Assembly (NCBI RefSeq): GCF_003336245.1
Contig: NZ_QPHM01000001.1
Span: forward strand, 2,112,113 to 2,176,112
Length of the DNA: 64,000 nt
From: Haloplanus salinus
Lineage (GTDB): Archaea; Halobacteriota; Halobacteria; Halobacteriales; Haloferacaceae
Direction: 5' to 3'
The notes beneath the pieces are model-generated. The model did no database searches and was not told the origin of the DNA. It saw only the letters and a list, made by a program, of their open reading frames with translations. The translations under genes were made by a program, and so were the position numbers. Below are positions 12,983-51,946 of the stretch, piece by piece. Each line of letters opens with the position of its first letter. The first letter of the stretch is position 1.

Positions 12983-13201
12983 CTACCGCCCGCTCGGGCC
13001 GGTGATGTCGAGCGGTCGAATCCACCCCCACCACAGCAGAAAGACCATGCTCCCGTAACCCGTCACGAACACGGCCGAGCCGAGGACGTTGTATCCCTGT
13101 TCGGCGAGAAAGCCACGGGCGAGCCCCGAACCACCGATGCCGAGAACGAGAAGGAGGATGATCAGCAGGGTGTCGCGGTTCAGATAGCCGTCGAGGTTCA
13201 T
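12983..13201 (-). CDS. Small membrane protein, two predicted helices
   Basis: A 72-residue protein has hydrophobic segments at about 11-30 (LLIILLLVLGIGGSGLARG) and 41-60 (VFVTGYGSMVFLLWWGW) and a short polar tail. Nothing in it identifies a function. It lies just downstream of the pilin pair on the same strand, 66 bases from the first pilin stop, so cotranscription is possible. Confidence 0.7.
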   Translation of the reverse strand: MNLDGYLNRDTLLIILLLVLGIGGSGLARGFLAEQGYNVLGSAVFVTGYGSMVFLLWWGWIRPLDITGPSGR

Positions 13202-13267
13202 ACCCGACGGTACGGCGCCGTCGCTACTGAGGGTGACGGTTCGGGCCGAAAAATCGTGCCCGAGGCG

Positions 13268-13681
13268 TTACTGCGGTGCGGTCGACCGGGCGATAGTGTT
13301 CGTGCTGCCGCCGTTTGGGTTGGTCCAGACGACGCGGAGCGTTTCCCCAGCAGTGTACGACTCGTTGGTAAAGACCCTGTCGCCAGCGCTGAAGTCGCCG
13401 GACACACTGTCGTTGATCGATCCACTGTCACTCCCGACGAGTTCGAGTGTCGATCCTTCCAGCGTCTCGCCACCGTCGTGGGTGACGTTGACCGTCGGTC
13501 CGGTCGTATCGTAATTGAAGCTGAGCGTGACCTGTGGTGCACTCTCGTCGACTTGATCGCCCAGACCGAGGACGAACGTGCCGATCACGGCGGCCAGAAT
13601 GACGGTGATGGCCACCATCAGGATGACGCCGATGACCGGACTCACAGCGCGGTCCTCCATCAGTAGTTGTTTCAGTTGCAT
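13268..13681 (-). CDS. Archaeal type IV pilin (copy 1 of a tandem pair)
   Basis: The 137-residue precursor has a class III signal peptide: MQLKQLLMEDRAVSPVIGV, cut by the archaeal prepilin peptidase around RAVS, then the hydrophobic H-domain (GVILMVAITVILAAVIGTFV, residues about 16-35) that forms the pilus core. The exposed domain (about 40-137) is Ser/Thr/Asp-rich and ends in ARSTAPQ. It belongs to the haloarchaeal pilin family once called DUF1628. It is very similar along its whole length to the gene at 13877-14290, and the two lie head to tail. Confidence 0.9.
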   Translation of the reverse strand: MQLKQLLMEDRAVSPVIGVILMVAITVILAAVIGTFVLGLGDQVDESAPQVTLSFNYDTTGPTVNVTHDGGETLEGSTLELVGSDSGSINDSVSGDFSAGDRVFTNESYTAGETLRVVWTNPNGGSTNTIARSTAPQ

Positions 13682-13770
13682 GGGTGTGACACGCCGGGCC
13701 GGAGCCGGGGGATCGGATGCTCCCGCACGGGCACGCGTCGACGTGTTGATGAGCGAGACGAACTGGTGCC

Positions 13771-13780
13771 TGATAAGTTT
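13771..13780 (-). promoter_or_regulatory. TATA element upstream of pilin copy 1
   Basis: On the minus strand AAACTTATCA lies about 95 bases before the pilin ATG, predicting an untranslated leader of roughly 65 bases. The equivalent box exists at the same distance in copy 2. Confidence 0.45.
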
Positions 13781-13787
13781 GCGCGGT

Positions 13788-13809
13788 AAATTATCTCTAA
13801 AGATAATTT
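13788..13809. promoter_or_regulatory. Perfect inverted repeat upstream of pilin copy 1
   Basis: AAATTATCT, a 4-base loop CTAA, then AGATAATTT form a 9-base perfect inverted repeat directly upstream of the proposed TATA box. Its AT-richness stands out. Copy 2 has a decayed version at 14402-14420. It is a candidate operator for a regulator of pilin expression. Confidence 0.55.
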
Positions 13810-13876
13810 TGGGTTGACATGCCGCCGGCTCGACGGCGAAGCGTCGAAAAAATGGTATAGCGGCGTCGCAGCGAGG

Positions 13877-14290
13877 TTACTGCGGCGCGGTCGAGCGCGC
13901 GATGGTGTTCGTGCTGCCACCCGAGGGGTTGGTCCAGACGACGCGGAGCGTCTCTCCGGCAGTGTACGACTCGCCGGTGTAAATCTGGTCACCGGCGCTG
14001 AAGTCACCGGATGCGCTGTCGTTGATCGACCCGCTGTCGCTCCCGACGAGTTCGAGGTTGGAGCCCTCGAGTGTCTCGCCTCCCTCGTGAGTCACGTCAA
14101 CCGTCGGCCCCGTCGTGTTGTAGTCGAAACTCAGCGACGACTGCGGTGCGTTCTCGCTCACTTGATCGCCCAGTCCGAGCACGAACGTGCCGATTACGGC
14201 GGCGAGAATGACGGTGATGGCCACCATCAGAATGACGCCGATGACCGGGCTCACTGCGCGGTCCTCCGTCAGTAGTTCTTTCAATTGCAT
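13877..14290 (-). CDS. Archaeal type IV pilin (copy 2 of a tandem pair)
   Basis: The 137-residue prepilin starts MQLKELLTEDRAVSPVIGV and has the same cleavage site, H-domain and ARSTAPQ terminus as copy 1. Differences are concentrated in scattered surface positions (for example DQVSENAPQSS against DQVDESAPQ). I started at 14290 because it aligns with copy 1; the longer frame adds 41 residues covering the duplicated leader. Both copies probably supply adhesion pilin subunits. Confidence 0.9.
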   Translation of the reverse strand: MQLKELLTEDRAVSPVIGVILMVAITVILAAVIGTFVLGLGDQVSENAPQSSLSFDYNTTGPTVDVTHEGGETLEGSNLELVGSDSGSINDSASGDFSAGDQIYTGESYTAGETLRVVWTNPSGGSTNTIARSTAPQ

Positions 14291-14382
14291 GGGTTGTCGA
14301 CACGCCGGGCCGGAGCCGGGGGGGTAGTGTGCTCCCGCACGGACACGCGTCGGCGTGTTGGTGACACGGACGTAGCGATGGG

Positions 14383-14392
14383 TGATAAATCC
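14383..14392 (-). promoter_or_regulatory. TATA element upstream of pilin copy 2
   Basis: On the minus strand GGATTTATCA is placed as in copy 1, about 97 bases before the ATG. The inverted repeat that follows upstream (14402-14420) has lost perfect pairing here. Confidence 0.4.
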
Positions 14393-14527
14393 GGGCGCTC
14401 CAATATCACTCAAGATAATTAGGGCCGGGCGAACGGTTCAGGATCACGTTGAACGTCGGCATCCCGAAAGAATGGTGACCTTACAGCCCGCTGCCGCCGG
14501 TCGATTGCGCGTCTCGGCCGGCGTCGC

Positions 14528-16354
14528 TCAGTAGCTCCGCTCTTTCGGTTCGTAGGTCTGGTTCTCGCCTTCGAGGACGACCGGTTTGTACCAGAGTTCG
14601 GGCGACCCGTTCGACCACGACACCATCGTGTGCTTGAGCCACCCGTCGTCCTTGCGCTCTTGGTGTTTCTTCCGCCAGTGGGCGCCGCGGAACTCGTCGC
14701 GTGCGAGCGCGCCGACCGTAATCATCTCCGCGATGTCCAGCAGGTTCCGCGTCTCGATGGTCTGAATCAGATCCGTGTTGTACGTACTCGACGGGTCGGC
14801 GACGTAGACGTCGCGGTACCGTTCGCGCGCGGCGCGGATGTCGACCAGCGCCTCCTTCAGCGCCGCCTCCTCACGGAAGACGTTGACGTTCTCCGTCATC
14901 GTGTGTTGGACTGCCGCCCGAATTTCGGCGTGTTGGGTCCCTTCGTCGCGTTCGAGCAGGCGTTCGACCCGTTGGCGCTCGCGTTCGAGCGTGCGCTCGA
15001 CGATGGCCTCGCCCGCTTCGGCGGCCGCACCGCCGTCCGCGACGGCTTCCGTCGCCCACGGCTCGCCCAGTTCGACCGGCGTCTCCACGTCGCCGGGCTC
15101 CGCGTCCTCGGTCCGACCGACCGTGATCCGCGGCTCTTCCGTTTCGCCGGCGGCGTGTCGGCCGGCACGGCTTCCGAAGACGATGAGTTCCGGCAGGGCG
15201 TTGCCGCCGAGGCGGTTCGCGCCGTGGACGCTCGCACAAGCGCACTCGCCGACGGCGTACAGCCCGTCGACGCAGGTCTGGCCGTGTTCGTCCGTCTCGA
15301 TGCCGCCCATCGCGTAGTGTTGACCGGGCTTGACCGGCATCGGCTCCTCCAGCCCGTCGACGCCCTCGAAGTCCTCCGCGAGGTGGAGGATATTTTCGAG
15401 TCGGTCGACGATGCGCTCCTCGCCGAGGTGGCGCATGTCGAGGTGGACGTACTCGTCCTCGATGCCCCGCCCCTCGTTCACCTCCGTCAACTCGGCGCGG
15501 GACACCACGTCCCGGGAAGCGAGTTCGCCGTCGTTGTTGGCGTAGCCGCCCTCGAACATGAACCGCTCGCCCTCGTCGTTGTAGAGGATGCCACCCTCGC
15601 CGCGCACCCCCTCCGAAATCAGGACGCCCGTGGAGGGAAGCGTCGTCGGGTGGAACTGGATCATCTCCATGTCCTCCGCGGGGACGCCCGCGCGGTAGGC
15701 CATCGCCACGCCGTCGCCCGTGTTCGCCACCGCGTTGGTGGTGTGGTCGTACACCTGTCCCAAACCGCCGGTAGCGAGGATGACGCCGTCGCGGGCGGTG
15801 AACGCCTCGACGTTCCCGGTCGCCGTCTCGTAAGCGACGACGCCGTGACAACTCCGTTCTCCCGGGTCGTCCTCGTCGGAGACGGCGAGGTTCAGCACGT
15901 ACCACTCGTCGAACACCTCGATACCCCGTTTGACCACCTGCTCGTACAGGGTGTGCAGGAGGTGATGCCCCGTCTCGGCGCCCGCGTACGTCGTCCGCGG
16001 GAACGAGAGACCGCCGAAGGGACGCTGGGAGACGGTGCCGTCGTCCTCGCGGGAGAAGGCCATCCCCCAGTGTTCGAGCTGGATCACTTCCTCCGGGCTC
16101 TCCTGCGTGAGCGCCTCGACGGCCGGGGCGTCGCCCAAGTAGTCCGACCCCTTCATGGTGTCGTAGGCGTGGAGTTCCCAGTCGTCGCCCTCCCGAAGGG
16201 CGGCGTTGATACCCCCTTCCGCCGCGCCCGTGTGACTCCTGACGGGGTGGAGTTTCGTGACCATCGCCACGTCTGCCCCCGCTTCCTGTGCCGCGATAGC
16301 CGCGCGCAGGCCCGCTCCGCCCGCGCCGACCACGATGACGTCGTATTCGTACAT
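14528..16354 (-). CDS. sdhA: Succinate dehydrogenase flavoprotein subunit
   Basis: SdhA (608 residues) oxidises succinate to fumarate in the TCA cycle and respiratory chain. The N-terminus is the FAD Rossmann motif VIVVGAGGAGLRAAIAA, then MVTKLHPVRSHTGAAEGG, where the His normally holds FAD covalently. GVRGEGGILYN, HYAMGGIETDEHGQT and the C-terminal FRGAHWRKKHQERKDDGWLKH are all family landmarks. The ATG at 16354 lies two bases after sdhB ends and begins directly with the FAD fold. It is the last gene of sdhCDBA. Confidence 0.97.
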   Translation of the reverse strand: MYEYDVIVVGAGGAGLRAAIAAQEAGADVAMVTKLHPVRSHTGAAEGGINAALREGDDWELHAYDTMKGSDYLGDAPAVEALTQESPEEVIQLEHWGMAFSREDDGTVSQRPFGGLSFPRTTYAGAETGHHLLHTLYEQVVKRGIEVFDEWYVLNLAVSDEDDPGERSCHGVVAYETATGNVEAFTARDGVILATGGLGQVYDHTTNAVANTGDGVAMAYRAGVPAEDMEMIQFHPTTLPSTGVLISEGVRGEGGILYNDEGERFMFEGGYANNDGELASRDVVSRAELTEVNEGRGIEDEYVHLDMRHLGEERIVDRLENILHLAEDFEGVDGLEEPMPVKPGQHYAMGGIETDEHGQTCVDGLYAVGECACASVHGANRLGGNALPELIVFGSRAGRHAAGETEEPRITVGRTEDAEPGDVETPVELGEPWATEAVADGGAAAEAGEAIVERTLERERQRVERLLERDEGTQHAEIRAAVQHTMTENVNVFREEAALKEALVDIRAARERYRDVYVADPSSTYNTDLIQTIETRNLLDIAEMITVGALARDEFRGAHWRKKHQERKDDGWLKHTMVSWSNGSPELWYKPVVLEGENQTYEPKERSY

Positions 16355-51440: not shown

Positions 51441-51946
51441 TCACGTCGGTGTGGCTGGCACGACGGCCGCGGGCGGCGCCGGCGTCGGCGTCGGCGTCGG
51501 CGTGGCGGCGATCCGTCGTCCCCGGAAGAGGACCGTGTTCGAGGGGTCGTGGACTAGGAGAACTTCGACCCGGTCGCCGACGGCGTACGGGACACCCCCG
51601 TCGAGCCGCCACTCGTCGCCGGCGTCGAAGGTGGCGTCCGCGCCGTAGCCGCCGTCGGCCGCGAAGTCGTACCGCTCCTCGACCCCGCCGTATCGGACGA
51701 CGACGGTCAGGTCGTCACCCGGGAGGCCGTCACCGCTCAGTGTGTAAGCGCCAGCGTGCTGTCGGTCACCGTCGCCCTGACGTCGACTGCGGGGCTGTCG
51801 TCGGGTTCGATGGTGCCCAACACGACGTAGCCGACGCTGCTCACGAGGATCACAACGATGGCGAGCAGCAACACGGTGGCGACGGCTTCCGACTGACCCC
51901 GGCTCACACCTCCGACGACGGTGTCCGCCCAGTTAACCGTCCCCAC
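51441..51946 (-). pseudogene. Type IV pilin-like gene broken by a frameshift
   Basis: The first frame (GTG 51946) encodes a prepilin-like N-terminus with RGQS cleavage site and H-domain (EAVATVLLLAIVVILVSSVGYVV) but stops at 51737 after VTDSTLALTH. Reading on in another frame gives a continuous pilin ectodomain with no stop for about 98 codons: YTLSGDGLPGDDLTVVVRYGG, then GDRVEVLLVHDPSNTVLF and a Thr/Pro tail. One base missing near 51737-51745 rejoins them into 168 residues. It is divergent from the gene at 52007. Confidence 0.75.

Follow-up and report, generated by a model that had tools for sequence, protein, structure and literature searches.

Candidate CsmR-type sites before both genes of a tandem type IV pilin pair in Haloplanus

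Introduction

The closest described system to the locus considered here is the CsmR regulon of Haloferax volcanii. In the CsmR sections of a 2026 study, the protein (hvo_1209) is reported to have a ChIP-seq motif, TATCA(N4)TGATA, which lies beside the TATA element and occurs in 50 of 65 peaks, and its targets are given as archaellum and chemotaxis promoters (PMC13286277). According to the same sections, the target genes and the pilins go up when csmR is deleted, the authors inferred a positive role for CsmR from the position of the motif, and the up-regulation of the pilins was termed compensatory; pilin promoters are not named as bound targets in these main-text sections and passages (PMC13286277). 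Regarding the pilins themselves, the relevant passages of a review state that the conserved H-domain of the H. volcanii pilins affects motility (PMC4371748). Literature searches, judged by listings and passages, returned no report that pilin promoters carry a CsmR site, and the search for "Haloplanus" together with "pilin" found no paper.

Here we describe two type IV pilin genes of a high-GC haloarchaeon of the genus Haloplanus, located in a stretch of 64,000 nucleotides (G000:C1:2112113-2176112) that will be called the window. A sequence-only reading of this DNA had noted a tandem duplication with an AT-rich palindrome before one of the copies, and had proposed that this palindrome, if it is an operator, would let the cell switch its surface type. 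Comparison across genomes leads us to a different view, namely that attachment and swimming are probably placed under one switch, and not that two pilin genes are switched against each other.

The pilin pair and its repeat unit

Both genes lie on the minus strand, and copy 1, a name kept from the sequence-only reading, is the downstream gene in transcription order.

13268 to 13681, minus strand: type IV pilin, copy 1 (win_B; downstream gene), open reading frame of 137 aa, Pfam PF07790 (Pilin_N) E 4.2e-26
13877 to 14290, minus strand: type IV pilin, copy 2 (win_A; upstream gene), open reading frame of 137 aa, Pfam PF07790 E 6.9e-26

The Pilin_N scores of the pair, 92 and 91.4 bits, both exceed the curated cut-off of 25.2, and the copies are 88% identical in protein and 83% in coding DNA. 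Direct repeats run through the unit: 300 nt at 80% with a spacing of 609, a stretch of 102 nt before the genes at 74% with a spacing of 612, and a block of 24 nt that is 100% identical between the copies at a spacing of 611. The earlier description of two 137-residue pilins duplicated together with about 130 bases of upstream DNA was therefore confirmed, the repeat taking in ~130 bp before the gene with an overall spacing of 609–612. The array adjoins an sdhA-like gene. Archaeal pilin structures that have been solved, 8fj5 (E 2.2e-34), 9myg (E 1.6e-12), and 8gi2 (E 5.3e-11), are relatives in sequence of the pilin P0002. Elsewhere in the window, a further weak Pilin_N match of 32 bits lies at 51740-51892 on the minus strand (G000:C1:2163852-2164004), in an open frame of 80 residues.

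The palindrome, the core dyad, and the TATA-like words

The elements before the two genes are the following.

13788 to 13809, no strand: perfect inverted repeat AAATTATCT-N4-AGATAATTT before copy 1, from an inverted-repeat search with shuffles
13792 to 13805, minus strand: core dyad TATCTTTAGAGATA of copy 1, 8/10 to the CsmR consensus
13773 to 13777, minus strand: TATA-like word CTTAT of copy 1, with the dyad start 28 bp before it
14404 to 14417, minus strand: core dyad TATCTTGAGTGATA of copy 2, 9/10 to the CsmR consensus
14385 to 14389, minus strand: TATA-like word TTTAT of copy 2, with the dyad start 28 bp before it

The perfect 9-bp AT-rich inverted repeat that had been read before the TATA box of copy 1 is indeed present, at 13788-13809. 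With up to 3 mismatches allowed, the window contains no second match to its pattern, and 100 shuffles give 0. Inverted repeats that have perfect 9-bp arms and a spacer of 0-12 are listed 36 times in the window, some of them overlapping, against a mean of 14 in 30 shuffles, and the copy-1 repeat is the only one of these with at least 7/9 A/T (0 in 30 shuffles). In the whole genome, the 16-base palindrome has one exact place and four more at 3 mismatches, including the copy-2 site, with 1 for the reversed control. The idea of a unique long palindrome serving as a global operator was rejected on account of this single exact place, and for the same reason the genome was searched anew for the inner dyad together with TATA.

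The inner dyad, TATC-N6-GATA, is intact at both pilin promoters, where it lies next to and upstream of TATA on the matching strand; the distance from dyad start to TATA is 28 bp in both, a spacing shared with the archaellin promoters of the genus. The loss of symmetry attributed to copy 2 thus holds for the outer bases and not for the inner dyad. Moreover, the asymmetric copy 2 is nearer to the CsmR consensus (9/10) than the palindromic copy 1 (8/10), and the TATA-like word differs between the copies, CTTAT in copy 1 versus TTTAT in copy 2.

Conservation across Haloplanus

The genus sample comprised 27 pilin upstream regions, the best 27 of 67 matches, from 12 Haloplanus genomes with our own included, and each region was scored by its best TATCA(N4)TGATA match at a distance of 27 or 28 bp from a following TATA-like word. 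Thirteen regions scored 9/10, five 8, seven 7, one 6, and one 0, so that 18 of the 27 reach at least 8/10 and 26 at least 6/10; in dinucleotide shuffles, 0.15% score at least 7. The zero belongs to G005_B, an intra-operon copy, and the 6/10 to G006_A. While the distance from dyad to ATG ranges from 118 to 147 among the genus pilins, dyad and TATA stay 27-28 bp apart, which ties the element to the promoter and not to the gene. The exact core dyad with TATA occurs in 14 of the 27 regions; the perfect 16-base palindrome was found in none of the 27 other than window copy 1. That orthologous promoters should lack the palindrome, a result named beforehand as refuting the operator, is therefore true of the perfect form in the other 26 genus copies and not of the core dyad with TATA. 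The right half of copy 2, GATATT, is common to the first copies G002_A, G003_A, and G009_A, and its presence in three positional orthologues means that it is not a fresh loss.

Tandem pairs or triples of such pilins, the genes separated by 189-234 bp, are found in 8 of the 12 genomes (G000, G001, G002, G003, G006, G007, G009, and G011). G005 has two abutting pilin genes, 5 bp apart, the second of which lacks a promoter-like dyad, and G004, G008, and G010 have single pilin genes at the loci fetched.

Trees for the history of the pair took in 20 and then 19 of the 27 copies, G011_B being dropped from the second as a long branch. The upstream DNA of copy 2 clusters with the first (A) copies of three other species (support 91/95, then 96/97). 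Forcing the upstream parts of win_A and win_B together is rejected only at the borderline (AU p 0.053), and the upstream part of win_B joined G003_B in the first tree (88/81) and was unresolved in the second. In the coding tree, win_A and win_B group at 100/100, and a positional grouping is rejected (p 2e-22). The tandem pair is probably older than the species, since the copy-2 upstream DNA follows its position in other species, and the coding sequences appear to have been made alike inside this genome, as gene conversion would do.

Matches in the whole genome and in the genus

The pattern used for whole genomes was TATC-N6-GATA-N13/14-YTTAT, with the reversed pattern as control. It has five exact matches in the entire genome of our haloarchaeon (reversed control 0), two of which are the window pilins. 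The remaining three lie before an archaellin gene (PF01917; dyad 63 bp before the start), in the gap between a divergent cheW (PF01584) and a frame containing cheB (PF01339 ~620 bp further on), and before a gene with a histidine-kinase-type ATPase domain (dyad 27 bp before the start). The pattern found no exact site at the other four Pilin_N proteins of this genome.

Across the genus, there are 34 exact matches in 10 of the 12 genomes, and again 0 for the reversed control. Of these matches, 14 precede pilins, 9 fall in the che gap, one precedes an archaellin, and 10 lie elsewhere, the two matches of G002 being placed by coordinates. No exact pilin site was found in three csmR-bearing genomes of the genus, G005, G006, and G010.

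Among individual sites, L157 and L162 (G009:C1:1546124 and G011:C1:638386) have the dyad and TATA 25 bp ahead of the gene for a small, conserved, uncharacterised protein, and these dyads are ~10 kb or less from csmR. In L151 and L172 (G003 and G001), dyad and TATA precede a small, possibly exported protein family.

The csmR orthologue and its co-occurrence with the site

The genome has a csmR orthologue at G000:C1:233416-233751. Its product shares 61% identity with the Haloferax protein, and the stretch PIATCYRRIEEL, within the HTH match, is identical in both. The gene adjoins an archaellin here as in Haloferax, and it lies beside archaellins and a gene for a KaiC-like ATPase (PF06745; L175:9755-10489, minus strand), which is convergent with csmR. 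A KaiC-like gene is also found beside csmR in three other loci of the genus (L208, L209, and L239), and we take it to be reminiscent of cirA. Five further CsmR-like HTH proteins match in the same genome, at E up to 0.001.

The archaellin nearest to csmR scores 9-10 at the register in all nine genus csmR loci in which one was found (11 scanned, L207-L217). In further loci with more archaellins, the scores are mostly 9, the third gene in L227 reaching 5 and L234 giving 0. The Haloferax archaellins, taken as positive control, score 0-3 under the TATA rule used here; with that rule dropped, the perfect motif appears in two of their promoters, L218 and L220 (L219 lay outside the rescan).

Family-wide, the dyad plus TATA pattern tracks csmR. 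The set comprised 148 genomes, 135 of them positive for csmR at E<=1e-20 (identity of the four weakest, 44-50%). The pattern occurs in 118 of the 148 genomes, the reversed control in 8. It is present in 116 of 135 csmR-bearing versus 2 of 13 csmR-less genomes (Fisher p 2.5e-7) and, among complete genomes only, in 109 of 121 versus 2 of 8 (p 7.7e-5); these p-values overstate independence, because the genomes are related and the csmR-less set is skewed (5/13 of one genus, 4/13 under 90% complete).

Within the genus, the contrasts are single cases, for G004 and G008 as well as for G005, G006, and G010. G008 (95% complete) has neither archaellin nor cheB match, and it keeps csmR (80% identical) with a KaiC-like neighbour; its only exact dyad plus TATA site is that of its pilin, at 9/10. 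G004 is without csmR orthologue, cheB, and exact site, and its pilin site scores 7/10; given that six pilin copies in csmR-bearing genomes of the genus also score 7/10 and one 6/10, the G004 contrast is weak evidence. The archaellin match of G004, L240 (G004:C1:2099980-2100333), is broken by two in-frame stops.

Pilin promoters outside the genus

In other haloarchaea, 14 of 74 pilin upstream regions score at least 7, compared with 0.24% of shuffles. A per-genus tally, which drew on 75 regions, gives 8 of 11 at this level for Haloarcula, mostly near-identical orthologues with the right half alone intact, 2 of 3 for Halosimplex, 1 of 3 for Halomicroarcula, 1 of 1 for Halomicrobium, 1 of 2 for Halohasta (9/10), and 2 of 19 for others. 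None of 33 Haloferax pilin promoters reaches 7 at the dyad-TATA register. When 28 Haloferax pilins were rescanned without the TATA rule, a few matches of 8-9/10 appeared elsewhere (L056, L071, L075, and L077), set back from TATA by about one helix turn more than the usual register. Thirty family loci with exact matches, scanned for three signatures, gave one pilin (L190, of another genus, whose exact site reads 10/10), one archaellin, no cheB, and 28 with neither pilin nor archaellin. To judge from these promoters, direct pilin control through a CsmR-type site would be patchy among haloarchaea.

A conserved 5′ leader

Each window pilin is preceded by a conserved leader.

13682 to 13746, minus strand: conserved leader of copy 1 (transcript start predicted), with predicted closing stem 13739-13746 / 13689-13696
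14291 to 14358, minus strand: conserved leader of copy 2 (transcript start predicted), with predicted closing stem 14351-14358 / 14300-14307

The ~65-70 nt between the predicted transcript start and the ATG are very conserved among 23 leaders of the genus, and a blended leader query gave two near-full matches in our genome, both at the window pilins, the rest being short. RNAalifold predicts an 8-bp closing stem immediately upstream of the ATG; over the 23 leaders, seven of the 8 pairs are kept in 22-23 and the outermost in 18, and covariation consists of a two-sided change at one pair, in 2 sequences. A second class of leaders in the genus (G010_A, G002x_A, and G003x_A) has other letters with a stem at the same place. 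Rfam gave no match at E up to 5 for window positions 13200-14600.

Whole-leader fold energies have z of -1.5 or lower in 6 of 26 leaders and are near 0 in the others, and a structured leader is not claimed on energy since most are not below shuffles. At p<=0.05, the closing stem is found in 4 of 75 leaders of other genera and 6 of 26 of Haloplanus with a wide window, and in 4 of 46 and 8 of 26, respectively, with a window anchored on TATA; at such low rates, no signal comes from leaders of other genera taken singly. A positional test, whose zone was chosen after the TATA-anchored result, found the stem in 16 of 35 distinct leaders, a set that includes two representatives of Haloplanus; the null mean was 4.4, and 0 of 300 shuffles came up to the observed count. 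With the zone unchanged, a held-out set (18 loci minus two duplicates, minus six lacking a TATA match) gave 4 of 10 against 1.2, reached by 15 of 500 shuffles; one of the held-out positives, L022, has arms almost identical to those of L054 in the first set. These results are only suggestive that this leader architecture is general. The leader may fold back just before the start codon, and it may act on mRNA stability or translation.

Discussion

We consider it probable that both pilins are CsmR targets, co-regulated with the archaella, each promoter carrying a CsmR-type site upstream of BRE/TATA. CsmR, a small winged-helix protein encoded beside the archaellins, would bind both pilin sites at that place and would set pilin transcription jointly with the archaellin, chemotaxis, and kinase-like genes; we infer both the binding and the sign of the regulation. 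A regulatory role for the palindrome is very probable. The idea of an operator is sustained by the conserved dyad, its fixed register to TATA, the match to the published motif, the presence before che and archaellin genes, and the way the site co-occurs with csmR. The perfect palindrome of copy 1 would be one natural variant of a CsmR-type site, so that the copies would differ in degree and not as on versus off, and the level of each pilin may be tuned by the features in which the copies differ, namely symmetry, TATA word, and leader.

The sequence-only reading went further, making the palindrome an operator specific to copy 1, with the pilins regulated oppositely and the cell switching its surface type. 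Some observations agree with it, as the repeat of copy 1 is symmetric out to its outer bases and that of copy 2 is not, the perfect form is found in no other of the 27 genus copies, the TATA-like words differ (CTTAT versus TTTAT), and preliminary data mentioned in passages of a review point to different H. volcanii pilins in planktonic and sessile cells (PMC4371748). However, both promoters keep the core dyad at equal register, copy 2 is the closer to the consensus at 9/10, and its GATATT variant recurs in G002_A, G003_A, and G009_A; differential regulation of the pair is left unsupported by these facts, and the opposed switch appears distinctly unlikely. It could also be that the operator is real and belongs to another regulator, for instance another HTH_20 protein, the likeness to the CsmR motif being coincidental or shared within the family, an explanation that draws on the five further CsmR-like proteins (E up to 0.001), on the Haloferax pilins without a site at the register, and on the 7/10 of csmR-less G004. 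We think this unlikely, as the identical site stands before archaellin and che genes, which the CsmR sections of the 2026 study give as CsmR targets (PMC13286277), and across 148 genomes the pattern goes together with the csmR orthologue. Finally, the window has many perfect 9-bp inverted repeats, and the palindrome might be a chance AT-rich symmetry in a duplicated stretch, with no function; conservation across species at a fixed register, set against 0.15% in shuffles, and a reversed-pattern count of 0 in the 12 genus genomes make this extremely improbable.

Under the reading preferred here, joint control by CsmR, a broader proposal can be formulated. CsmR would directly drive the appendages of both swimming and attachment in Haloplanus and in part of the other haloarchaea, a lineage without archaellin or cheB would keep CsmR for its pilin, this direct branch of the regulon would have been lost or rewired in Haloferax, and the pilin transcripts would carry a new 5′-terminal hairpin leader, from near the transcript start to just before the start codon. 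This combination is put forward tentatively, as somewhat more likely to fail in one of its parts than to hold in all of them. If true, swimming and attachment in archaea would be linked via one DNA-binding protein. The genus offers pilin promoters with CsmR-type sites, a species with csmR and pilin and without an archaellin or cheB match, and a csmR-less species, and with such contrasts direct versus indirect control of pilins by CsmR becomes testable.

Comparison with known systems

The locus resembles the CsmR regulon of H. volcanii, as set out in the CsmR sections of its description (PMC13286277), in the motif by TATA, in the archaellin and che targets, and in the position of csmR beside archaellins. 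It differs in that the Haloplanus pilin promoters carry the site themselves, whereas 0 of 33 Haloferax pilins do so at the register. By analogy with PilA1-PilA6 of H. volcanii, the window pilins are putative adhesion pilins: in the passages of the review that treat that system, there are likewise several pilins with a nearly identical N-terminal segment (PMC4371748). Unlike PilA1-PilA6, Haloplanus has a tandem array of two or three genes, with its own promoter for each copy, in 8 of the 12 genomes of the genus.
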